Assembly: GCA_018433595.1 (NCBI GenBank)
Contig: JAHDQY010000049.1
Span: 1 to 64,000 of the forward strand
Source of the DNA: Synergistales bacterium
Lineage (GTDB): Bacteria > Synergistota > Synergistia > Synergistales > Aminithiophilaceae
Length of the DNA: 64,000 nucleotides
Reading direction: 5' to 3'
The notes under the pieces are model-generated. The model did not search any database. It was not told the DNA's origin and was given only the letters and a program-made list of their open reading frames with translations. How positions within the stretch are numbered: the stretch's first letter is position 1; the number at the start of each line of letters is the position of its first letter. A program made the position numbers and the translations under genes. Positions 51,801 through 64,000 of the stretch are shown piece by piece.

Positions 51801-53075
51801 ATGAGACTGGAACTGCGCCGGGCTGTCGTTGAAGGCCTCGTTTTCGGCCCTGCCACGGGCCTTGACGGGGGGCTGCTCACCGTCGATGCCGATGAGGCCC
51901 TGCGGTGTCTTGAGGGCATTTCCCTGACGAAGATGCGTCTGGAGATCGCCAGGCCCGGCGAAAGTGTGAGGATCATTCCCGTCAAGGACGTGATCGAGCC
52001 GCGCTGCAAGGTGGAGGGGCCCGGAGAGGTCTTTCCCGGCTTCATTGGCGACGTCGAGACCGTCGGTGAGGGGGCTACCCTTGTCCTCGACGGCGCCGCC
52101 GTCGTCACCTGCGCGCCCGTCGTCGGTTTCCAGGAGGGCTTCATCGACATGTGCGGCCCCGGGGCCGACTACACGCCCTTCTCGAAGACGAAAAATCTCG
52201 TCCTCATCGCCGAGCCCGAGGAGGGGCTGGAAAAGCACGCCTACGAGGGGGCTCTGCGGATGGCCGGTCTCCGCCTGGCCCACTACCTGGCCAAGGCCTG
52301 CGCGTCCGTTGCTCCGGACCGGACCGAAACCTACGAGCTGCCTCCCCTGGCGGGACGGAATTCCGACCTTCCCCGCTTTGTCTATATCTACATGCTCCAG
52401 TCCCAGGGCCTTCTCCATGACACTTACCTCTACGGCGTCGACGTGAAGAAGATCCTGCCCACCCTCATTCACCCCAACGAGGTCCTCGACGGCGCCGTCG
52501 CCTCGGGCAACTGCGTCTCGGCCTGCGACAAGAACACCACCTACCATCACCTGAACAATCCCGTCATCGCCGAACTCTACCGCCGCCACGGCGTCGATCT
52601 CGACTTCCTGGGCGTCATCGTCACCAACGAGAACGTCGTCCTTGTCGACAAGAAACGTTCGTCGAGCTACACGGCCAAGCTGGCCTCCATGATCGGCGCC
52701 GACATGGCCATCGTCACCGAAGAGGGTTACGGCAATCCCGACACGGACCTGGTCATGAACTGCGCCAAGCTGGAGCGTCGGGGCATCAGGACGGTCCTCG
52801 TCACCGACGAGGCGGCCGGCGCCGACGGCGCCAGCCAGGGACTGGCCGATGCCGTCAGCGAGGCGACGGCCGTCGTTTCGGCCGGCAACGTCAACGCCAT
52901 CGTCGTCGTTCCGCCCATGGATCGCGTCCTGGGCTGGCCCGAGTCGATCGCCACCCTTTCGGGGGGCAACGAATCGAGTCTCCGCCCCGACGGTTCCATC
53001 GAGACGGAGATCCAGGCCATCATCGGCTCGACGAACGAGCTCGGCTTCAGTGCCATCGGCTCCCGTTGGGTCTAA
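51801..53075 (+). CDS. grdE: Glycine/sarcosine/betaine reductase component B, subunits alpha/beta proprotein
   Basis: A 424-residue proprotein of the GrdE/GrdG/GrdI family. The processing and active-site Cys region is GNCVSACDKNTTYHH (Cys238 and Cys242), where related proteins are cleaved to give a pyruvoyl group. With GrdB and the shared components A and C (not in this window) it reduces glycine, sarcosine or betaine to acetyl phosphate. The sequence does not decide which substrate. A ribosome site GGGGAGG precedes the ATG. Confidence 0.85.
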   Translation: MRLELRRAVVEGLVFGPATGLDGGLLTVDADEALRCLEGISLTKMRLEIARPGESVRIIPVKDVIEPRCKVEGPGEVFPGFIGDVETVGEGATLVLDGAAVVTCAPVVGFQEGFIDMCGPGADYTPFSKTKNLVLIAEPEEGLEKHAYEGALRMAGLRLAHYLAKACASVAPDRTETYELPPLAGRNSDLPRFVYIYMLQSQGLLHDTYLYGVDVKKILPTLIHPNEVLDGAVASGNCVSACDKNTTYHHLNNPVIAELYRRHGVDLDFLGVIVTNENVVLVDKKRSSSYTAKLASMIGADMAIVTEEGYGNPDTDLVMNCAKLERRGIRTVLVTDEAAGADGASQGLADAVSEATAVVSAGNVNAIVVVPPMDRVLGWPESIATLSGGNESSLRPDGSIETEIQAIIGSTNELGFSAIGSRWV

Positions 53076-53089
53076 AGGGGGAAAGAAAG

Positions 53090-54397
53090 ATGACCAAGCG
53101 CGTTGTCCACTACGTGAACCAGTTCTTCGCCGGTCAGGGCGGTGAGGAGTCGGCCCATCTCGAGCCGGTTACCGTCGAGGGAGCTCTCGGACCGGGACTT
53201 CAGCTTCAGACCCTTCTGGGTGACGAGGCCCAGGTCGTCGCCACCGTCTGGTGCGGCGACAACCATTTCGCCGAGAACCTCGAAAGCACCCGGCGCGAGG
53301 TGCTCCGCCGGATCGCCTCCTTCGAGCCCGATCTCGTCATCGCCGGCCCGGCCTTCAACGCCGGCCGTTACGGCATGGCCTGCGGCGAGGTCTGCCGGTC
53401 CGTCACGGAGGAGCTGAACATCCCGGCCCTGACGGGGCTTTACCCCGAGAACCCCGGCGTCGAGATCTACAGCCGCGATATCTACATCGTTCCCGTCGCC
53501 GACAGCGCCCGGGGGATGAAGGTCGCCCTTCAGACCATGGGCGCCCTGGCCGCCAAGCTCCTCAACGGTGAACTTCAGGGAACGGCCGAGGAGGAGGGTT
53601 ACCTCTCCCGGGGGCGGAGGAAGAACTTCTTCTTCGCCGAAAACGGCGCCGTCCGCGCCGTCGAGATGGCCCTGGCCAAATTCCACGGTCAGCCCTTCAA
53701 GACCGAGTTCGAAATGCCCGTCTTCGACCGCGTTCCGCCCGCTCCGGCCCTGAAGGACCTCAAGGGGGCCACCATCGCCCTCGTCAACTCGGGAGGCGTC
53801 GTTCCCATGGGCAACCCCGACCGGATCGAGGTTTCGTCGGCCTCCCACTTCGGCCGCTACTCCCTGGAATCTCTCGAGGACTTGACGGCTCAGGCCTTCG
53901 AGTCCGTTCACGGCGGTTATGACCGGACCTACGTCAATGACGACCCCGACCGGGTCGTCCCCCTCGACGCCTTGAGGGCCCTCGAAAAGGAAGGTGTCTT
54001 CGGGCGCCTCTACGAATATTACTTCTCGACGGTCGGCACGGGAACGCCGGTGAAGAACTGCTCCCGCTTCGGCACGGAGATTGCCGGACAGCTCAAGGCC
54101 GACGGCGTCGACGCCGTCATCCTCACCTCGACCTGAGGCACCTGCACCCGCTGCGGCGCAGCGATGGTCAAGGAAATCGAACGGGCCGGGTTCCCCGTCG
54201 TTCACATCGCCACCATTGTGCCCATCTCCCTCACCGTGGGCGCAAACCGGATCGTTCCCGGTGTGGCCATTCCTCATCCCCTGGGCAATCCCGATCTTCC
54301 GGCCGAGGAGGAGTTCGCCCTTCGCCGGAGCCTCGTCGAACGGGCCTTCCGGGCCCTGACGACGGACGTGACGGAGCAGACCGTCTTCAACGACTGA
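53090..54397 (+). CDS. grdB: Selenoprotein B of glycine/sarcosine/betaine reductase (TGA = Sec)
   Basis: A 435-residue selenoprotein read through an in-frame TGA at 54134-54136 (Sec349). Before it the frame gives VDAVILTST and after it GTCTRCGAAMVKEIERAG, the exact GrdB-family context for selenocysteine, followed by TIVPISLTVGANRIVPG as in family members. Without recoding the product would end at 348 residues and lose this part. It binds substrate and forms the C-N bond-cleaving selenoether. GrdB, GrdF and GrdH cannot be told apart here. It starts 14 nt after grdE with GGGGGAAAG. Confidence 0.92.
54134..54163 (+). promoter_or_regulatory. Selenocysteine TGA with SECIS-like hairpin
   Basis: After the TGA (54134-54136) a hairpin CGCTGC-GGC-GCAGCG spans 54149-54163; its loop has G at the first two positions and lies about 19-21 nt after the TGA, within the range known for bacterial SECIS elements. 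The same bases encode the conserved RCGAA. Confidence 0.8.
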
Positions 54398-54406
54398 ACC
54401 TTCAAG

Positions 54407-54466
54407 CCCTGACAGAAGCCAAGCCTCCCCACTCTCAAGAGTGGGGAGGCTTGGCTTCTGTCAGGG
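54407..54466. terminator. Very long perfect hairpin after grdB
   Basis: Arms of 29 nt (CCCTGACAGAAGCC... and its exact complement) with a 2-nt loop. It probably ends grdEB transcription, but it has no T tract. 54467-54633 shows no gene. Confidence 0.75.
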
Positions 54467-54633: not shown

Positions 54634-54662
54634 TTGAACCTTCCGTGAAAATTGGTTACAAT
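54634..54662 (+). promoter_or_regulatory. Promoter of the Mo-hydroxylase leader
   Basis: TTGAAC (54634-54639), a 17-nt spacer and TACAAT (54657-54662). Transcription would start near 54669, 24 nt before the structured leader. Confidence 0.65.
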
Positions 54663-54692
54663 TGTTCCGTCAATCGCATAGTCCTCCAAGCC

Positions 54693-54832
54693 TGAATGCC
54701 TAAAGGGATTCCCTACGGCATCAGGCCGATAGGTGGAGCTGGAAACGGCTTCGCCCCCCTTTCGGAAAGGAGGAAAACGGCACGGTCCCTTGGACCGGCT
54801 TTCCGTCGTTTCCGGAAAGCCGGTCTTTTTTT
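54693..54832 (+). ncRNA. Structured leader with terminator and competing hairpin (candidate riboswitch)
   Basis: Four elements in order: a hairpin CCTG/ATGCC pairing with GGCAT/CAGG (54693-54726); a 10-bp stem GGTGGAGCTG-GAAA-CGGCTTCGCC with a GNRA-type loop (about 54731-54754); a hairpin CCTTT/AAAGG; then a perfect intrinsic terminator GACCGGCTTTCCG/CGGAAAGCCGGTC (54793-54825) with TTTTTTT. CGGTCC-CTT-GGACCG can pair instead with the terminator's first arm. This terminator/antiterminator design upstream of a Mo enzyme operon suggests a sensor of cofactor or substrate; whether it is a Moco-type aptamer I cannot say. The remainder to 55108 shows no further clear structure. Confidence 0.55.
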
Positions 54833-55108
54833 GTGTGCTTCCCGCCGGCAGAGAACGGGTCGGGGGAAGAGGCGGTTGTCGTTGCGTTTGGCTTTATCGC
54901 GTTCCATTCCGCCTGTGGTGACGCTTCAGTCCTTTGGGTGCTGTCCCGTGCTCTGGCCTGTACCCGCTGTGCGCCAAGTGTGGTGCCTGACGTGTTTTTC
55001 CCGCATCACCGAGGGGTTGGCGCGGCTGTTTCCGTTTCGCAGCGGTTTTTCTTAAGGACAAGAAAGGAGGGAATCCAGACGGGGGAGGATTTAAAAAGGT
55101 TCCATCAG

Positions 55109-55507
55109 TTGAAAAACGAGGGGAAGTGTTGTGCCAGTATCCTTGTGCAGCTGGGGCTGGATCTGAAAGGGGAAGAGAACGACCAGCTTGTCCAGGCTGC
55201 AAGCGGGCTTTGTCTCGGAATGAAGAGCGGTCTTGTCTGCGGTGCTTTGACTGGGGGGGCCTGCATGCTCACCCTCTTCGACGAGAATTCCGACGAGATG
55301 GTGCAGGAACTTGCGGAATGGTTCCGTGCGGTCTGCGGCGAGAAATACGGTGGCATCGACTGTGCGGAGATCACCCATGACGATCCTCAAAGACGGCAGA
55401 TGGTGTGTCCTGATCTGATTCAGGCGACCTATCTGCAGGCCAAGAGGATTTTGTCCGATTACGGCTACCTGTCCCGCGATTTTTGTGAGGGCGGGGATGA
55501 TTCCTAG
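55109..55507 (+). CDS. C_GCAxxG_C_C family protein (DVU_1555-like)
   Basis: A protein of about 132 residues with the spaced cysteines of this family: GKCCASILV near the start, GLCLGMKSGLVCGALTGGACM and FRAVCGEKYGGIDCAEI, and a later VCPDL. Such proteins accompany Mo hydroxylase genes in Desulfovibrio-type clusters and may bind a metal cluster. The start is uncertain: TTG 55109 (9 nt after AAAAGG) is used, but homologues begin about 10 residues earlier, where no standard start exists. Confidence 0.72.
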   Translation: MKNEGKCCASILVQLGLDLKGEENDQLVQAASGLCLGMKSGLVCGALTGGACMLTLFDENSDEMVQELAEWFRAVCGEKYGGIDCAEITHDDPQRRQMVCPDLIQATYLQAKRILSDYGYLSRDFCEGGDDS

Positions 55508-55544: not shown

Positions 55545-58466
55545 ATGGCGCTTAAAAAGATGTGGCTTAATATCAACGGAGCGAATCGCATCTTCATCTG
55601 CGACCCTGAAAAGGATTCTCTGGCGGATGTCCTGCGCCGCATCGGCTGCACCAGCGTCAAGGTGGGCTGCAATACGGGAGTCTGCGGCTCCTGCTCGGTC
55701 ATTCTGAACGGCGAACTGATTCGTTCCTGCATCAGGAAGATCGGCAGAGTGGAGGAGTACAGCAAGGTCATCACCGTGGAGGGAATCGGGACTCCCAACA
55801 ACCTCCACCCCATCCAGGTCGCCTTCATGAACAACGGCGCCATCCAGTGCGGTTTCTGCACGCCGGGCTTTGTCGTCTCCACCTACGCCCTGCTTGCCCA
55901 GAACAGCAGCCCCACCCGGGAAGAGGTCCGGGACTGGTTCGACAAGCACAAGAACGTCTGCCGCTGCACGGGCTACAAGCAGATCACCGACGCCGTTATG
56001 GACGCCGCCAAGGTCATGCGCGGCGAGGCGACCATCGAAGACATCACCTACAAGCTTCCCGGGGACGGGGAGTACTACGGCAAGCCTCTGGTGCGTCCCA
56101 CAGCCCTGGCCAAGGTCTGCGGCCTGGCCGATTACGGCCACGATCAGGCGCTGAAGATGCCCTCCAACACCTACCATGTGGCCATGGTGCAGCCCCGGGT
56201 GGCTCATCACGCCAAAATCCTCAAGATCGACATTTCCGAAGCGGAGAAGATGCCCGGCGTCGCCAAGATCATCCTCGCCGATGATCTGAAGGCGGCGGGA
56301 GGCTCCAACATGATGGCCGAGGCCAACTTCCACGAGAGAAGCACCGTCACGGTGCCCAGCCGCAAGGTCCTCGCCGAGGACAGGATCTACCGGTGGGGCG
56401 ACGTGGTGGCCCTGGCCGTTGCGGATACCGATGATCACGCCCGGGCGGCGGCGGCCAAGGTCAAGGTGGAGATCGAAAAGCTTCCCGAGTACCTGAGTTT
56501 CCTTGAGGCGGCCATGCCCGATGCCATGCGGATCCACGAGGACACGCCGAACATTTTCTGTATTCAGCCCGTGCTGAAGGGTGCCGGTCTGGAGGAGCCC
56601 TCCCAGGTGGCCGAGATCATCGACAATGCCGCCTTCTCTGTCGAGGGCAGCTTCTATTCCAGCCGAGAGCCGCATCTTTCCATCGAAGGCGACGTGATTC
56701 AGGCCTATTTCGATGAGGACGGCTATCTCACCTTCCAGTGCAAATCTCAGGGCGTCTACTCCTCCATCAGCCGGATCGGCGGCTCCATCGGAATGCCCAC
56801 GTCGAAGATGCGCGTCGTCATGAATCCCACCGGAGCCAGCTTCGGATGGTCCACCAATGCGGGCGACCTCTGCCTGGCAGGGGCGGCAGCGATGGTCATG
56901 CAGGCTCCGATCTCCCTTTCCATGAGCTACGAGGAGCACCAGCACTTCTCGGGCAAGCGCTGCCCCTGCCATTCCAACGGACGGGCCGCCTGTGACGAGA
57001 ACGGCAGGCTCACGGCCGTGGAGTTCGATTTCGGCATGGATCACGGCGCCTACTCCTGGGGCGGCGACGACGTGGTGACCAAACAGGTCCGCTTCGCCTT
57101 CTTCCCCTACTACGTTCCTGACGTGGCGGGACTTTCCCGGATCGCCAACACCAACCACAACTTCGGCACCGCCTACCGCAGCTACGGGTCCCCCCAGGCC
57201 TACACCCTGAGCGAGGCCCTGATGGACATGCTCGCCGAGAAGGCAGGCATCGATCCCTTCGAATTCCGCTGGCGGAACATCGCCAGGGAAGGCCAGACCA
57301 ACGTCAACAGCTATCCCTTCCGGCAGTACCCCATGGAAGAGATGATGAAGATGATGAAGCCCCTCTACGAGAAGGCTGTGGCGGAGGCCAAGGCGAAGGA
57401 CACTCCCGCGAAGCGCCGGGGCGTGGGGCTCTCCTGGGGCGGCTTCAACGTCACCGAAGGCGCCACGGATAAGGCGTCGGCGGCCATCGAACTCAACCCG
57501 GACAACACCTTCACGAAGTACGACACCTATCAGGAGCTCGGCCAGGGTGGCGACATCGGTTCTCTCATGCTCACTCTGGAAGCGCTGAAGCCTCTGGGCG
57601 TCACGCCCGACCGGATCAGGCTCGTCCAGAACGACACCAAGCTCTGCCCCGACAGCGGCATGTCCGGTGCCAGCCGCACCCACTTCATGAGCGGCAGGGC
57701 GACCCAGATCGCGGCGGAGAAGCTCATCAACGCCATGCGCAAGCCCGACGGGACCTTCCGGACCTACGAGGAGATGAAGGCCGAAGGGCTGGAAACGAAG
57801 TACGTCGGCCAATACTCCAACACGTCCATTTCCGGGCTGGGGCGCCTCGATCCCAACACGGGAATCGGAGATCCCACCCCCGCCTACACCTACTGCCTGA
57901 ACCTGGCTGAGGTGGAAGTGGACACCGCCACCGGCAAGACCCGGGTCCTCCGCTTCACCTGCGTGGACGACGTGGGCAAGGTCGGCAATATCCAGGCCGT
58001 CAATGGCCAGGCCTACGGCGGAATTTCCCACTCCATCGGCTTCGCTCTGAGCGAGAACTACGACGACGTCAAGAAACACACCAACATCGCCTCCAGCGGC
58101 GTGCCCTACTGCAACGACATTCCCGACGAAATCAACGTCATCCACTACGAGCGTCCCGACGAGGCCGGTCCCTTCGGCTCTTCGGGAGCTTCCGAGGCCT
58201 TCCAGTCCTCGGGCCACATGGCCGTCATCAACGCCATCTACAACGCCTGCGGCGTCCGGATCTTCGAGCTGCCGGCGACCCCGGCCAAGGTCAAGGCCGG
58301 CCTGGATCTCATCGCGAAAGGCGGCAAGGTGGAGCCTCCCAAGAAGTATTTCCTGGGCTCTGACCTCTACGAGGAGCTTGAGAATATCAAGGCCAACCCC
58401 GTGAAGTTCGACGGCGGTGACTACTTCGTCTCCCTTGGCGGAGACAAGACGGATAAGTTCTTCTAG
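55545..58466 (+). CDS. Molybdenum hydroxylase (aldehyde oxidoreductase/xanthine dehydrogenase-like)
   Basis: A 973-residue one-chain hydroxylase like Desulfovibrio MOP. The N-terminal plant-type [2Fe-2S] domain has C42, C47, C50 and C62; the second [2Fe-2S] domain has C102, C105, C139 and C141 (QCGFCTPG, VCRCTGY). The Mo domains follow, with TAYRSYGSPQAY and GPFGSSGASEAF near the catalytic Glu region. No FAD domain is present, so electrons leave through a separate partner, probably the next gene. ATG 55545 follows GAGGAGG. The substrate (aldehyde, purine or other heterocycle) is unknown. Confidence 0.88.
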   Translation: MALKKMWLNINGANRIFICDPEKDSLADVLRRIGCTSVKVGCNTGVCGSCSVILNGELIRSCIRKIGRVEEYSKVITVEGIGTPNNLHPIQVAFMNNGAIQCGFCTPGFVVSTYALLAQNSSPTREEVRDWFDKHKNVCRCTGYKQITDAVMDAAKVMRGEATIEDITYKLPGDGEYYGKPLVRPTALAKVCGLADYGHDQALKMPSNTYHVAMVQPRVAHHAKILKIDISEAEKMPGVAKIILADDLKAAGGSNMMAEANFHERSTVTVPSRKVLAEDRIYRWGDVVALAVADTDDHARAAAAKVKVEIEKLPEYLSFLEAAMPDAMRIHEDTPNIFCIQPVLKGAGLEEPSQVAEIIDNAAFSVEGSFYSSREPHLSIEGDVIQAYFDEDGYLTFQCKSQGVYSSISRIGGSIGMPTSKMRVVMNPTGASFGWSTNAGDLCLAGAAAMVMQAPISLSMSYEEHQHFSGKRCPCHSNGRAACDENGRLTAVEFDFGMDHGAYSWGGDDVVTKQVRFAFFPYYVPDVAGLSRIANTNHNFGTAYRSYGSPQAYTLSEALMDMLAEKAGIDPFEFRWRNIAREGQTNVNSYPFRQYPMEEMMKMMKPLYEKAVAEAKAKDTPAKRRGVGLSWGGFNVTEGATDKASAAIELNPDNTFTKYDTYQELGQGGDIGSLMLTLEALKPLGVTPDRIRLVQNDTKLCPDSGMSGASRTHFMSGRATQIAAEKLINAMRKPDGTFRTYEEMKAEGLETKYVGQYSNTSISGLGRLDPNTGIGDPTPAYTYCLNLAEVEVDTATGKTRVLRFTCVDDVGKVGNIQAVNGQAYGGISHSIGFALSENYDDVKKHTNIASSGVPYCNDIPDEINVIHYERPDEAGPFGSSGASEAFQSSGHMAVINAIYNACGVRIFELPATPAKVKAGLDLIAKGGKVEPPKKYFLGSDLYEELENIKANPVKFDGGDYFVSLGGDKTDKFF

Positions 58467-58534: not shown

Positions 58535-58573
58535 TTGGCTGCATCTGCGAGAGGAGAGCAAGGAGGTCCTGCC

Positions 58574-60877
58574 GTGGAAGAACTCAAAGAACAGATCCAA
58601 ACCCGCTGCCTGGAAAAGGAAGAGCCCTTTTGCGGATCGGCCTGTCCTTTCCATCTGGACGTCCGGGAGTTTATCCTTCGCATGCAGCGCGGAAGCTTCA
58701 ACGGGGCTTTCAGGCTCTTTTCCAACACCGTAGGCTTTCCCGCCATTGTGGCGGCTCTCTGTGACGAGCCCTGCAAGGCCGTATGCCCGCGATCCGAAAC
58801 GGATGAGGCGATCGCTCTCAGGCTCCTGGAAAAGGCAGCCCTGAACCATGCCGTGAACACCAGGCCCAACAGCTACAATCTGCCGCCCAAGCCCCAGAAG
58901 ATCGCCGTCATCGGAGGAGGATTGAGCGGCCTCGCCTGTGTCCTCCGGCTGACCAACAAAAAATACCAGGTCACTCTCTTTGAAAAAGAGGGCGACCTGG
59001 GGGGCCATCTCTGTAATCTTCTCAAGCCCGAGATTTTCCTTGAGGAATTTGAACGTCAATTCATGTACGAAACGTATGAACTCCACAAAAACAGAGAGGT
59101 CGAGACTCTCGAGGAAATCCTTCCTGGTTTTGACGCCGTCTACGTCGCCACCGGCAAGGGAGGAAGCTCCTTCGGCCTTCTGGAGGAGGTCTCGGAGAGA
59201 TCGCCGGGTCCCAGAGCGAGCTCTCTTCCGGGGGTTTTCCTGGGTGGATCCCTTCTCGGGGCGACGACCATGAAGGCCCTCGCTCAGGGGCTTCTCGCGG
59301 CGACTCTCGTCGAAAGCTGGCTCAAGACGGGAAACATGAAAGACGCCGCCGCCGTCGCTCCCACAAAGATGCGCCTCGCCCCAGGTGCCTTGGCCTTTGT
59401 GGAGCCCGTGCGCCCTGAGAAGGAAGATGCCTACACCAGGGAGGAGGCGAAAGCGGAGGCGCGACGTTGCATCCGCTGCCGCTGCGACGCCTGCTTCCGT
59501 CACTGCGCCCTGATGACCTATTTCGAGAAGCTCCCCCGTCGCATCGAGGAGGAGGTGGAGATCACCATTCACCCCGGCACCCTCGACGGCAACGGAACCG
59601 TGGCCACGCGCTTCATCTCCACCTGCAACCAGTGCGGTCTCTGTGGGGAGATCTGTCCGGAAAAGATCGACATGGGGCTTTTCCTCCGGAAAAGCCATCA
59701 GGCCATGAGGGCCAAGGGAGCCATGCCCTGGGCCTTCCACGATTTCTGGCTGAGGGACATGGAATTCGCCAACGGGGACCGGGCCTCTTTCTGCGCCGCT
59801 CCCGACGGTTACGACGAGAGCGAATTTCTCTTCTTCCCCGGCTGTCAGCTCGGCGCGTCGGATCCGCGCTACGTATCGGAAGTCTACCGCTTCTTGCGGT
59901 CGCAAAAGCCCGATACGGCTCTCAGCCTCGCCTGCTGCGGAGCCCCCGCCGTCTGGGCCGGAGACGAGGGGCTTCATGGCAAGGTCCAGGAAAGGCTCCG
60001 CGACGAGTGGCAGTCCCTGGGAGAGCCGAAACTCCTCTTTGCCTGCGCCAGCTGCCTTGAAATGTTCCGGGAGTTTCTTCCGGAAATCGAAGGAGTTCTC
60101 CTCTACGAAGTCCTCTCCCGGTGGGGGTTCCGGCCTCGCAATCGGCAGGCGGAAGAGGTAGCGTCCGTTTTTGACCCCTGCGCCAGCCGCCACCAGGCGG
60201 AGGCTCAGCGAAAGGTCCGGGAGCTGGCGGAGCGGTCGGGCTACAGACTGGTCCCCCTCCCCTACGAGGGCAGGGAGGCCCAATGTTGTTCCTGGGGCGG
60301 GCAGATCTCCATCGCCAACCCGGCTTACGCGGAGTGGCTGGCCGATAGGAGAGCCCGGGAGGGAGAGGCGCCCTATATCGTCTACTGTTCCAACTGCCGG
60401 GATATTTTCGCCGACCGGGGCAAACCGGTACGGCACATCCTGGACGTCCTCTTCGACCTGAGCGGATGGGATCGCAGCTCTCCGACCTTCAGCGCCCGGA
60501 GACGTAACCGCGAGGAGCTGAAACGCTCTCTCCTGAGGGAATTCTGGCCCGGGCGGGAGGTGGAGGAAAGGAATATGAACGAATTCAGGAGGCCGAAGCT
60601 CCTCATCTCTCCCGAGCTGGAAGCGAAGCTGAGCCGGGAGCACATCCTGGAGGAGGATGTGCTGGATGTGATTTCCTTCTGCGAATCCTGCGGGCGGAAA
60701 ATCTGGAGCCCCGAGCAGAAAAGCTTCACCGGCTATCGAGAGGTGGGGAAGTTCACCCTCTGGGTGGAATATGAGCCTTGCGGAGAGGACTTCAAGCTGC
60801 GCAACGCCTACAGCCATCGGATGAGAATCGAGTTGGAGGAAGTCTGGAATGGAAGAAAGCAGAAAATTGATCTGTAG
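58574..60877 (+). CDS. FAD/Fe-S oxidoreductase (DVU_1558-like, dicluster)
   Basis: A 767-residue protein. An N-terminal Cys-rich ferredoxin-like part (CGSACPFHLD, CDEPCKAVCP) precedes the Rossmann motif IAVIGGGLSGLACVL. A C-terminal half has RCIRCRCDACFRHC and CNQCGLCGEICPEKI, and HdrD-type CCG domains with FFPGCQLG, SLACCGAP and AQCCSWGG. It probably takes electrons from the Mo hydroxylase or passes them to NAD or a quinone pool. GTG 58574 follows AAGGAGG; the 3' end overlaps the next gene by 29 nt. Confidence 0.85.
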   Translation: MEELKEQIQTRCLEKEEPFCGSACPFHLDVREFILRMQRGSFNGAFRLFSNTVGFPAIVAALCDEPCKAVCPRSETDEAIALRLLEKAALNHAVNTRPNSYNLPPKPQKIAVIGGGLSGLACVLRLTNKKYQVTLFEKEGDLGGHLCNLLKPEIFLEEFERQFMYETYELHKNREVETLEEILPGFDAVYVATGKGGSSFGLLEEVSERSPGPRASSLPGVFLGGSLLGATTMKALAQGLLAATLVESWLKTGNMKDAAAVAPTKMRLAPGALAFVEPVRPEKEDAYTREEAKAEARRCIRCRCDACFRHCALMTYFEKLPRRIEEEVEITIHPGTLDGNGTVATRFISTCNQCGLCGEICPEKIDMGLFLRKSHQAMRAKGAMPWAFHDFWLRDMEFANGDRASFCAAPDGYDESEFLFFPGCQLGASDPRYVSEVYRFLRSQKPDTALSLACCGAPAVWAGDEGLHGKVQERLRDEWQSLGEPKLLFACASCLEMFREFLPEIEGVLLYEVLSRWGFRPRNRQAEEVASVFDPCASRHQAEAQRKVRELAERSGYRLVPLPYEGREAQCCSWGGQISIANPAYAEWLADRRAREGEAPYIVYCSNCRDIFADRGKPVRHILDVLFDLSGWDRSSPTFSARRRNREELKRSLLREFWPGREVEERNMNEFRRPKLLISPELEAKLSREHILEEDVLDVISFCESCGRKIWSPEQKSFTGYREVGKFTLWVEYEPCGEDFKLRNAYSHRMRIELEEVWNGRKQKIDL

Positions 60878-61043
60878 CCGCTGTCAGGTGGAAATGACTC
60901 CGGCCAAGGCCTACTTCAGTTACCTGGACCACAGCTTTCACACGGATCTTCTCCGCTGTCCCCGCTGCGGGCAGGTCTTCATCCCCGAGGAGCTGGTCAA
61001 GGGCAAGATGCAGGAGGTCGAAATGGCCCTGGAGGACAAATGA
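60849..61043 (+). CDS. Small double-CxxC protein (DVU_1557-like)
   Basis: A 64-residue protein with C9-x2-C12 (ICSRCQVEM) and C37-x2-C40 (RCPRCGQVF), a rubredoxin-like pair of knuckles that may bind iron or zinc. It begins inside the previous gene and ends in an ATGA overlap with the radical SAM gene, which argues for translation. Confidence 0.8.
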   Translation: MEESRKLICSRCQVEMTPAKAYFSYLDHSFHTDLLRCPRCGQVFIPEELVKGKMQEVEMALEDK

Positions 61044-62380
61044 GAGAAGACAACAGAAGCGGCGAAATAGAAGAGACGGCAGTGCTCCGGTGCACCTACA
61101 GCGTCTGCCCGATCTGTCTCAGGCGCATCGAGGCTCGCCATGTACGGCGGAAGGGCGGCGTTTTCCTGGAGAAGGAATGCCCGGAACACGGCGCTTTTTC
61201 CGTCCCCTTCTGGCGGGACAGGATCGATCTGGCCGACTGGATCAAAGACGCGGAGCCGATCAGAGAGGGAGAGAACCTGAACTGTCCCCACGCCTGCGGT
61301 CTCTGCCCCGACCACAGGCGGGATACGTGCTGTGTCGTCCTGGAGGTGACGGGGCGATGCAACCTCGACTGCTCCTTCTGCTTCGCCGGCAAGGACGGAC
61401 TTTCGGAACCCTCCTTCGACCGGCTGAGGGAAAGCCTGCAACAGCTGATCCGGCCGGGTGCGACGCTGGTTCAGCTCAGCGGCGGGGAGCCCACCCTCCG
61501 GGACGATCTGCCGGAACTCGTGGCAGAGGCGAAAAAGGCGGGCTGTAAGTACGTGCAGCTCAACAGCAACGGAATCCGGCTGGCCGAGGATCGACAGTTC
61601 GTGAAGACCCTGGCCGATGCCGGACTCTCCTTCGTCTTCATGCAGTTTGACGGGATAAGAGACGGGACATACGAAAAACTGCGTCGCCGACCCCTGCTGG
61701 GCATCAAAAAACAGGCCATCGTCAACTGCGGAGAGTGCGGCCTCGGCGTGGTCCTCGTTCCCACTCTCGTTCCGAGAGTCAACATCGACGAAATCGGGGA
61801 CATCATCCGTTTCGGCGTCGCCCTCTCCCCCTTCGTGAGGGGGGTCCATTTCCAGCCGGTGAGCTATTTCGGACGGATCCCGCGGCTGCCCGGGGATGAG
61901 GACCGCTTCACCCTGGACGAACTGATATGGCAGATCGGCGAGCAGGCGGGGGACCTGGTCCGTCCGGAAAATCTCGGCCCCTCCTGCTGCGATCATCCCC
62001 TCTGCGGTTTCCACGGGGACTTCATCGTCCTGGGGCCGGGCAAACTCCTTCCCCTGAGCAAAAGAGACGGTCATACCGTGCAGGATTCCCCCTGCTCCGA
62101 CCCGGCGGACCGGAGCAGGGAGTTCGTCGCCCGGCGATGGCAGAGAGGGGAGGAGAAGCTTTCCGGGAATCCGCTGAATTCACGGCAGGATGACATCCAG
62201 GACATGGATTCTTTCCTGGAACGGCTGAAGGTTCACGGCTTCACCGTCACCGCCATGCCTTTCCAGGATGCCGGCAATCTCGATCTGGAGCGTCTCCGTT
62301 CCTGCAGTCTCCACGTTTTCGCAGAGGGGAAGATGATCCCCCTCTGCGCCCGCTACCTGACGGCGTGGAGAGGAAAATGA
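61040..62380 (+). CDS. Radical SAM protein, TrsS-like
   Basis: A 446-residue radical SAM enzyme. An N-terminal Cys-rich part (CPICLRR, ECPEHG, CPHACGLCPDHRRDTCC) suggests an auxiliary cluster; the radical SAM motif is CNLDCSFC (C107, C111, C114), followed by the GGEPTL loop. The family occurs with Mo hydroxylase genes of the DVU_1551-1559 type and probably modifies the cofactor or an accessory protein, but the reaction is unknown. Start ATG overlaps the previous stop. Some relatives contain selenocysteine; no in-frame TGA is seen here. Confidence 0.82.
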   Translation: MREDNRSGEIEETAVLRCTYSVCPICLRRIEARHVRRKGGVFLEKECPEHGAFSVPFWRDRIDLADWIKDAEPIREGENLNCPHACGLCPDHRRDTCCVVLEVTGRCNLDCSFCFAGKDGLSEPSFDRLRESLQQLIRPGATLVQLSGGEPTLRDDLPELVAEAKKAGCKYVQLNSNGIRLAEDRQFVKTLADAGLSFVFMQFDGIRDGTYEKLRRRPLLGIKKQAIVNCGECGLGVVLVPTLVPRVNIDEIGDIIRFGVALSPFVRGVHFQPVSYFGRIPRLPGDEDRFTLDELIWQIGEQAGDLVRPENLGPSCCDHPLCGFHGDFIVLGPGKLLPLSKRDGHTVQDSPCSDPADRSREFVARRWQRGEEKLSGNPLNSRQDDIQDMDSFLERLKVHGFTVTAMPFQDAGNLDLERLRSCSLHVFAEGKMIPLCARYLTAWRGK

Positions 62381-63030
62381 CCCTTCACGGAGCCCCCTTC
62401 CCCAGGCCGGGAGGACTGGAGATCACCGAAAGGGCCCTCCGCTTCTGCCGCTTCCCCTCCCGTTCCCGCCTGGCCGACATCGGATGCGGCCGAGGTGAGA
62501 CGATCCGCCACATCCTGAAAAACCACGATTTCCATATCCTGGGCATCGACAAGGACGAGGCTCTGATCGGGGAACTCCTTTCCGAAGACGAAGGTTTTCC
62601 CGTCATGACGGGGGACGCCCTCCGCCTGCCCTTCCCCGACGACGGGCTCGACGGCCTCCTCTACGAGTGCAGCTTCTCGAAGATGGAAAGCCCCTCGGGC
62701 GTTCTGGAGGAGGCCTTCCGGGTCCTGAAAGGGGGAGGTTTCCTGATCGTCTCCGATTTTTACGCCGCCGGGGAAGAGAGGACCTTCTCGGGAATTCTCG
62801 GGAGGGTCGAGAGGAAGGAGGCGCTGATCGCCAGAATGGAGAAAGCGGGCTTTGCACTCGACTTCTTCGAGGACTTTTCGGCGGGTCTGCCGGGACTCTG
62901 GGGGCAGATGGTCCTTGACAACGGCTTGGAGCGCCTCAGGGAGCTGATCGGAGTCGGCGGTCCCTTGTGCGATGTCCGATGCCGTTACGGACTTTTTGTG
63001 GGCCGGAAGCCCGAAGCCGATGCTCTCTAG
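62377..63030 (+). CDS. SAM-dependent methyltransferase (DVU_1556/TrsM-like)
   Basis: A 217-residue class I methyltransferase with motif I LADIGCGRGETIRHIL and the motif IV-like LLYECSFSKMES. ATG 62377 overlaps the radical SAM stop (ATGA), and its end overlaps the ligase start by a few bases. It probably works with the radical SAM protein on the same substrate. Confidence 0.78.
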   Translation: MTLHGAPFPRPGGLEITERALRFCRFPSRSRLADIGCGRGETIRHILKNHDFHILGIDKDEALIGELLSEDEGFPVMTGDALRLPFPDDGLDGLLYECSFSKMESPSGVLEEAFRVLKGGGFLIVSDFYAAGEERTFSGILGRVERKEALIARMEKAGFALDFFEDFSAGLPGLWGQMVLDNGLERLRELIGVGGPLCDVRCRYGLFVGRKPEADAL

Positions 63031-64000
63031 GATCGAAGACTGGACGGCGACAGTTACGGGCCTGGGGGCGGCCCTGACCCCGGAAGCGTTGGCGGACTGG
63101 CAGATGGGGCGGATCCGCAAGGCCCTCACCCGTGTTCGGGAAAAGAGCACCTTTTACAGGGAGAGCCTCGCCGGAATCGCCGTAGAGAATGTCCTCACGC
63201 CGCCGGACCTGGAGAAACTGCCTTTCACCTCTCCCGAGGACCTGCTCAGGGACCCGGAAGCCCTGCTGTGTGTCCCCTCGAAAGAGATCTCCAGAGTCAT
63301 CACCTTCCGCACCTCCGGAAGCACGGCCGGGCCCAAGCGGATCTATTTCGCCGAAGAGGATCTGGAACGGACGGTGGCCTTTTTCTCCCTGGGAATGACG
63401 ACCTTCGCCGAGGCCGGGCAGCGGGTGGTGATTTTCTTCTCCAGCAGCATTCCGGGCAGCATCTCCGACCTGCTGAGACAGGGGATCGAAAGGATGGGGG
63501 CCGCCGCGGAAATCCATGGCCCCGTCAACGACCCGGAAGAGGCCGGGGCTGCGGCGTCGGGGGCGGACTGTCTGGCGGGGATCCCCGGCGAGATGATCTA
63601 CCTCTGCCGTACCTGCCCCGAACTGCGCCCGAAAACGGTGCTCCTGAGTATGGACTATGCCCCGCAAAGCGTGATCGAGGGGCTGGAGAAGACCTGGAAG
63701 TGCAGGGTCATCCCCCATTACGGCATGACCGAAGCGGGCTACGGCCTTGCCTTGCGGTGTCACTCGGGGAAAGGCTACCATCTGCGCCATCCCGAAATCT
63801 TCGTGGAAATCGTTGATCCCGTCACGGGTCGCCGGGCAGTTCCCGGCCAAGAGGGGGAGGTGGTTGTCACCACCTTCTCCCATAAGGCCATGCCCCTCAT
63901 CCGCTACCGCACCGGCGACATCGCCTGGATGGATCTCTCTTCCTGCCCCTGCGGGGGCGTGCTGCCCCGTCTCGGCGGGATCCGGGGCCGGGCCGCCGGG
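63020..64000 (+). CDS. AMP-dependent ligase/CoA ligase-like (DVU_1553), 3' part outside window
   Basis: An ATG at 63020 opens 327 codons that remain open to the window edge. P-loop TSGSTAGPKRI (about residue 98), PHYGMTEAGYG and IRYRTGDIAW are the adenylate-forming motifs, as in PaaK-like ligases. It is the last visible gene of the Mo hydroxylase cluster and overlaps the methyltransferase by 11 nt. The substrate is unknown. Confidence 0.85.
   Translation, partial: MLSRIEDWTATVTGLGAALTPEALADWQMGRIRKALTRVREKSTFYRESLAGIAVENVLTPPDLEKLPFTSPEDLLRDPEALLCVPSKEISRVITFRTSGSTAGPKRIYFAEEDLERTVAFFSLGMTTFAEAGQRVVIFFSSSIPGSISDLLRQGIERMGAAAEIHGPVNDPEEAGAAASGADCLAGIPGEMIYLCRTCPELRPKTVLLSMDYAPQSVIEGLEKTWKCRVIPHYGMTEAGYGLALRCHSGKGYHLRHPEIFVEIVDPVTGRRAVPGQEGEVVVTTFSHKAMPLIRYRTGDIAWMDLSSCPCGGVLPRLGGIRGRAAG

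Follow-up and report, generated by a model that had tools for sequence, protein, structure and literature searches.

The closest described relatives of the leader studied here belong to the Moco RNA motif (RF01055), in which the RNAs without the P3 stem were proposed, from a correlation, to be sensors of the tungsten cofactor (Regulski et al., 2008; PMC2408646). These P3-less "Tuco" RNAs share with our leader the P1 stem, a P2 stem with its receptor, a GAAA-capped P4, P5 and the lack of P3, as well as a terminator platform and a cofactor-related operon downstream (PMC2408646). By contrast, our leader carries CUCCAAG instead of CUCCGAG and an A.C at the base of P4, its target is a DVU_1555/Mop-type aldehyde-oxidoreductase operon, and Synergistota are probably outside the phyla listed in the abstract of that paper. 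The Escherichia coli moaA Moco riboswitch is of the same aptamer class and is likewise predicted to follow OFF logic; however, it possesses P3 and hides a ribosome-binding site in P1, whereas the leader described here has no P3 and is predicted to act through transcription termination (PMC2408646).

A P3-less RF01055 riboswitch upstream of an aldehyde-oxidoreductase operon

In the window, by which we mean the whole stretch of 64,000 nucleotides of Synergistales DNA that was analyzed, the initial annotation had described a candidate riboswitch of no recognized class and had suggested an Infernal search against Rfam. Run on the whole window (cmscan), this search returned RF01055, the Moco/Tuco riboswitch, with 71 bits (E = 4e-15), 35 bits above the curated gathering cut-off of 36 bits. 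The leader RNA is therefore a further member of an already known riboswitch class, in the form without P3, and a new class is ruled out by the match. The alignment runs end to end over model positions 1–135, with all P3 positions deleted and a junction of 3–4 nt in their place (Table 1). Both the GNRA tetraloop on P4 and the receptor in P2 are present, and the genomic context, with the operon of a molybdopterin-dependent aldehyde oxidoreductase downstream, fits the class. The compact multi-hairpin domain with a GNRA-capped stem that had been noted earlier corresponds to this aptamer, the capped stem being P4; folded together with the terminator it has z = −5.0, and none of 200 shuffles was as stable. 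The strong promoter that had been placed upstream also held, since it matches 9 of 12 consensus positions and is the sole match in 2 kb, where 0.3 would be expected. The aptamer match begins 10 nt past its −10 box, and by sequence reading a congener has TTGAAG-N17-TACAAT at the matching place. A minus-strand match to the DUF1874 RNA reached 22 bits, below its 42-bit cut-off, and was rejected.

Table 1. Features of the leader and of the operon that follows it (window coordinates; gene families assigned by NCBIfam matches)
Feature	Position	Strand	Basis
Sigma-70-type promoter, −35 TTGAAC, 17-nt spacer, −10 TACAAT	54634..54662	+	Boxes and spacing shared with G001 and G003 (congeners)
RF01055 Moco/Tuco aptamer, P3-less form	54672..54788	+	cmscan and alignment
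P1 5' strand UCCUCC, partner 54769–54774	54682..54687	+	Alignment, folding
P2, with internal tetraloop-receptor-like bulge CCUAA / UACGG	54690..54726	+	Alignment
P4 stem, GAAA tetraloop cap at 54742–54745	54732..54755	+	Alignment, folding
P5, 2 pairs	54758..54765	+	Alignment, folding
Antiterminator hairpin, exclusive with P1, P5 and terminator	54760..54817	+	Prefix folding
P1 3' strand GGAGGA, also used by the antiterminator	54769..54774	+	Folding
Intrinsic terminator (14 pairs, 54792–54826) and T run	54792..54832	+	Stem/loop nearly identical in congeners
Leader spacer, no excess structure	54833..55078	+	z +0.8
DVU_1555-family C-GCAxxG-C-C protein, first gene	55079..55507	+	NF045669, 120.8 bits (cut-off 103)
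Mop-type molybdopterin-dependent aldehyde oxidoreductase	55545..58466	+	NF045668, 1147 bits; PDB 1dgj, 1sij/1vlb
Pyridine nucleotide-disulfide oxidoreductase/dicluster-binding protein	58535..60877	+	NF045663, 772 bits
Radical SAM (seleno)protein TrsS	61040..62380	+	NF045646, 518 bits
DVU_1556-family methyltransferase	62365..63030	+	NF045667, 162 bits
DVU_1553-family AMP-dependent CoA ligase, continues past window end	62972..64000	+	NF045666, 378 bits

The coding part had been expected about 280 nt further on, and it does begin about 250–280 nt after the terminator, with the small correction that the first gene has no ATG. Its start is either ACG 55079, which is well placed after AAAGGAGG and at which homologues have ATG, or TTG 55109. 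A 224-aa open frame from GTG 54833 shows homology only from about residue 88 and starts at the end of the terminator T run, and its extension was therefore taken as non-coding. No second RNA element was found in the spacer (54834–55078) by Rfam search or by folding. The closest solved relatives of the Mop-type enzyme are the Desulfovibrio aldehyde oxidoreductases (1dgj, 1sij/1vlb), which are established Mo enzymes (PMC10223205).

Covariation in homologous leaders

The comparison set comprised 61 genomes (the window's own, three congeners, and the remainder from the same order), 43 of which contain the RF01055-type motif, and 129 copies were collected. Covariation in homologous leaders, on which the initial annotation had made its proposal depend, is present: among 61 diverse P3-less copies, both partners have changed in 22 of the 33 aptamer pairs, and 88.7% of cells are paired. 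The covariation score was 0.467, against 0.183 in shuffled alignments and at most 0.124 in slid controls (sliding the partners by a single column lowered it from 0.47 to 0.12), and cells with double changes numbered 361 against 130 in shuffles. P5 is uninformative in this respect because it is invariant.

Expression platform and predicted direction of the response

A perfect terminator whose first arm could pair in a competing hairpin had also been claimed, and both elements were recovered. The terminator stem has no mismatches and is followed by a T run, and the competing hairpin is part of the minimum-energy fold of the RNA truncated at 54818, where the first arm and the loop of the terminator pair instead with P5 and the P1 3' strand. 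The two are about equal in energy (terminator alone, −25.6 kcal/mol; antiterminator at 54761–54813, −25.5 kcal/mol). When growing prefixes were folded, P1 was intact to 54812, the antiterminator was best at 54818, and P1 and the terminator returned together from 54822, these being minimum-energy predictions and not kinetics; one congener leader showed the same mutually exclusive behavior. Complementarity between the P1 3' strand and the terminator arm was above that of shuffled arms, with 28 of 72 terminator leaders at p < 0.05 and the whole set clearly shifted, where the pooled value is not to be read as a probability because the 72 leaders are mutually related. The earlier suggestion of a riboswitch with a terminator/antiterminator platform and, as predicted ligand, Moco or the tungsten cofactor appears well founded.

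Since P1 and the terminator coexist whereas the antiterminator breaks P1, ligand binding should favor termination (OFF), and by this folding model the ligand would most likely stop transcription of the aldehyde-oxidoreductase operon when the cofactor is plentiful. Genetic ON control, in which the ligand prevents the terminator, would be sensible for a cofactor-using enzyme, and ON-type builds are present in tungsten AOR leaders, as discussed below. However, the geometry is against it, as the terminator does not overlap P1, both are present at once in the minimum-energy fold, and the alternative hairpin that blocks the terminator also breaks P1; ON control of this operon was rejected as highly improbable.

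Absence of P3 and the distribution of tungsten genes

Judged by eye, P3 is absent in nearly all collected copies, and clear P3 stems occur in five, of which three precede a modABC-like operon and two precede Mop genes. Genes for the tungsten AOR (PF01314) are present in 41 of the 61 genomes; P3-less copies were found in 40 of these 41 and in none of the 20 genomes without PF01314. In the three genomes with P3-bearing copies only, neither PF01314 nor TupA was found, and the switch precedes the modABC-like operon. The most frequent targets of P3-less copies are tupABC operons. This co-occurrence, which as a genome association is partly phylogenetic, fits the tungsten-cofactor proposal of Regulski et al. 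(PMC2408646), the evidence being correlation in both cases. The tungsten-cofactor specificity of P3-less RNAs had rested on one correlation from 2008, and the relatives compared here, which cover genomes with and without tungsten enzymes and copies with and without P3, give a sharper one.

Alternatively, the aptamer might sense Moco, or both cofactors, despite having no P3, like the E. coli moaA switch. The P3/Tuco rule is a correlation only, and in the E. coli RNA control was lost upon deletion of P3 while specificity was unchanged (PMC2408646). Further, the window's own genome (G000), in which four PF01314 matches indicate tungsten use, has despite these no TupA match and only ModA-type binding proteins. 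Against this, copies with and without P3 segregate with the tungsten genes across the 61 genomes, and we consider Moco sensing rather unlikely.

Some arrangements recur among the relatives. Tandem Moco-type switches about 340–370 nt apart precede tupA in G031:C37, G044:C1, and G049:C2 (L069, L068, and L066), the second copy of each pair being more divergent, and in many relatives P3-less switches lie before DcuR/DpiA-like response regulator genes (L065 8161–8856 and similar).

Probable repression of a Mo-type enzyme by the tungsten cofactor

For the ligand, the direction of the response and its physiological purpose, we infer the following sequence of events. The tungsten cofactor, as the most likely ligand, would bind the P3-less aptamer and hold P1 closed, upon which the terminator would form and transcription would stop before the Mop-type operon; when the ligand is absent, P5 and the P1 3' strand would be engaged in the antiterminator, pairing with the 5' arm and the loop of the terminator, and the operon would be read. 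The purpose would be to shut off the Mo-type aldehyde oxidoreductase when the tungsten cofactor is available for tungsten AORs. We regard this whole reading, a P3-less RF01055 OFF switch through which the tungsten cofactor represses the operon of a Mo-type enzyme, as probable, although it would be unusual for an enzyme to be repressed by a cofactor that it may itself use, which counts against this reading. OFF control suits tungstate transporters, and would be odd for an enzyme unless the user of the ligand is another enzyme.

Switch and Mop genes are frequently associated. The 61 genomes contain 38 strong Mop homologues, and 27 of these have a switch at most 1.5 kb upstream on the same strand. 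Among named genome loci with relatives of the enzyme, the motif, searched with a model built here, precedes the gene in about 15 of 79; these switch-led loci are chiefly from Clostridia (Maledivibacter halophilus, Formimonas warabiya, Clostridium fessum, Sinanaerobacter), and several share the order of the window, i.e., switch, C-GCAxxG-C-C gene, enzyme.

It is conceivable that the same P3-less OFF switch serves a Mop-type enzyme that itself uses tungsten, as plain feedback sparing the enzyme and its accessory proteins. Nearly all switch-led Mop genes have a P3-less copy before them, those in Clostridia included, and the genomes are rich in tungsten AOR genes. However, the solved homologues contain Mo, and three genomes (G015, G023, and G048) have a Mop homologue while tungsten AOR, TupA and the switch were all unfound in them. 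The leaders of the tungsten AOR genes tend, moreover, to the opposite build: a T-tailed hairpin whose first arm is the P1 3' strand (ON-type) was found in 6 of 11 AOR leaders, whereas Mop leaders with a sorted platform comprise 19 of OFF type, the window's included, and two of ON type, both P3-bearing, the sorting being automatic and rough, so that no weight should be placed on leaders that score equally for the two builds. Mop genes without tungsten genes in three genomes, together with ON-type AOR leaders against OFF-type Mop leaders, favor a Mo-type enzyme repressed by the tungsten cofactor, and we judge feedback on a tungsten-using Mop enzyme to be somewhat improbable.

Tungsten AOR leaders often contain a 111-nt variant aptamer with loops such as GCGA, GTAA, and GCAA. 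Such variants, with a GNRA loop other than GAAA, lie before tungsten AOR genes in L099 (3908–4018), L101 (142–252), L103 (3909–4019), L107 (3904–4014), L121 (3368–3478), and L126 (418–528), and in these six the P1 3' strand is used to build a hairpin, often with a T tail (ON-type).

Tentatively, we hypothesize that in this order a single aptamer class serves metal choice with both polarities, in which P3-less OFF switches silence tungstate transporters and the Mo-type aldehyde oxidoreductase in the presence of the tungsten cofactor, the 111-nt P3-less variant acts as an ON switch for tungsten AOR, and the P3-bearing Mop copies of two genomes seem to be ON-type for Moco. The window, with its compact terminator-type switch, would represent the OFF arm of this possible but doubtful scheme. 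If the tungsten cofactor does switch off a Mo-type enzyme in this way, an RNA would be choosing between two metals that serve the same chemistry. TaoR, a tungstoenzyme regulator of Desulfovibrio, reportedly acts on aor and tupABC. The kinds of target, tungsten aor and tupABC, and the control by tungsten are the same, but TaoR is a protein and not an RNA, and no relationship is claimed; the TaoR study (Rajeev et al., 2019) is cited in PMC10102598 and PMC11980592.

Departures of the window copy and the genomic neighborhood

The window copy departs from the other aptamers at near-invariant positions. Its CUCCAAG junction, in place of CUCCGAG, is unique among the 61 P3-less copies compared, and its basal P4 pair is A.C, where 58 of the 61 have G.U. 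An A.C pair can mimic G.U. Judging from the sequence, these departures may weaken ligand binding, and the activity of the window copy is therefore not guaranteed; they are single-base changes only, and class membership stands because it rests on the model score and not on conserved junction detail. Another copy with AGG-U and CCCCCC (L085, 631–749) brings the basal P4 A.C to two copies.

The unit of promoter boxes, aptamer and terminator is found again in congeners G001 and G003, with a match of 0.82 over aptamer and terminator (next best, 0.66), at another site, upstream of a PBP_like_2 (PstS-like) gene. At the site that corresponds to the window locus, flanked by an hcp-like gene (from about 64316 in the window's own contig) and the end of grdF, G001 and G002 have different, shorter DNA, and the segment from 54401 to about 64315 (roughly 10 kb) is therefore specific to the window's genome among the four of the genus. 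A decaying riboswitch, in which the cassette became attached to a recently gained operon, the aptamer has mutated, and the terminator is constitutive or overridden, would account for the changed near-invariant bases, the lack of an ATG in the first gene, and the absence of the segment from the matching site of the congeners. By contrast, P1 can still pair, the tetraloop and its receptor are undamaged, both mutually exclusive folds remain available, the terminator stem is conserved with the congeners, and the score lies well above the cut-off; we regard decay as quite unlikely.

The congener cassette (L038, 881–2191 and the following genes) heads a PstS-like binding protein and genes that match no family, which might together encode an oxyanion transporter of an unknown kind. 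An inverted repeat of 29 bp, perfect and with 2 nt between its arms (54407–54466), lies at the left border of the genome-specific segment; it is not followed by a T run, and no second copy was found in the genome. To the left of it, the gene for sarcosine/glycine reductase selenoprotein B (53066–54397) contains an in-frame TGA and a SECIS_4 element at 54134–54174.
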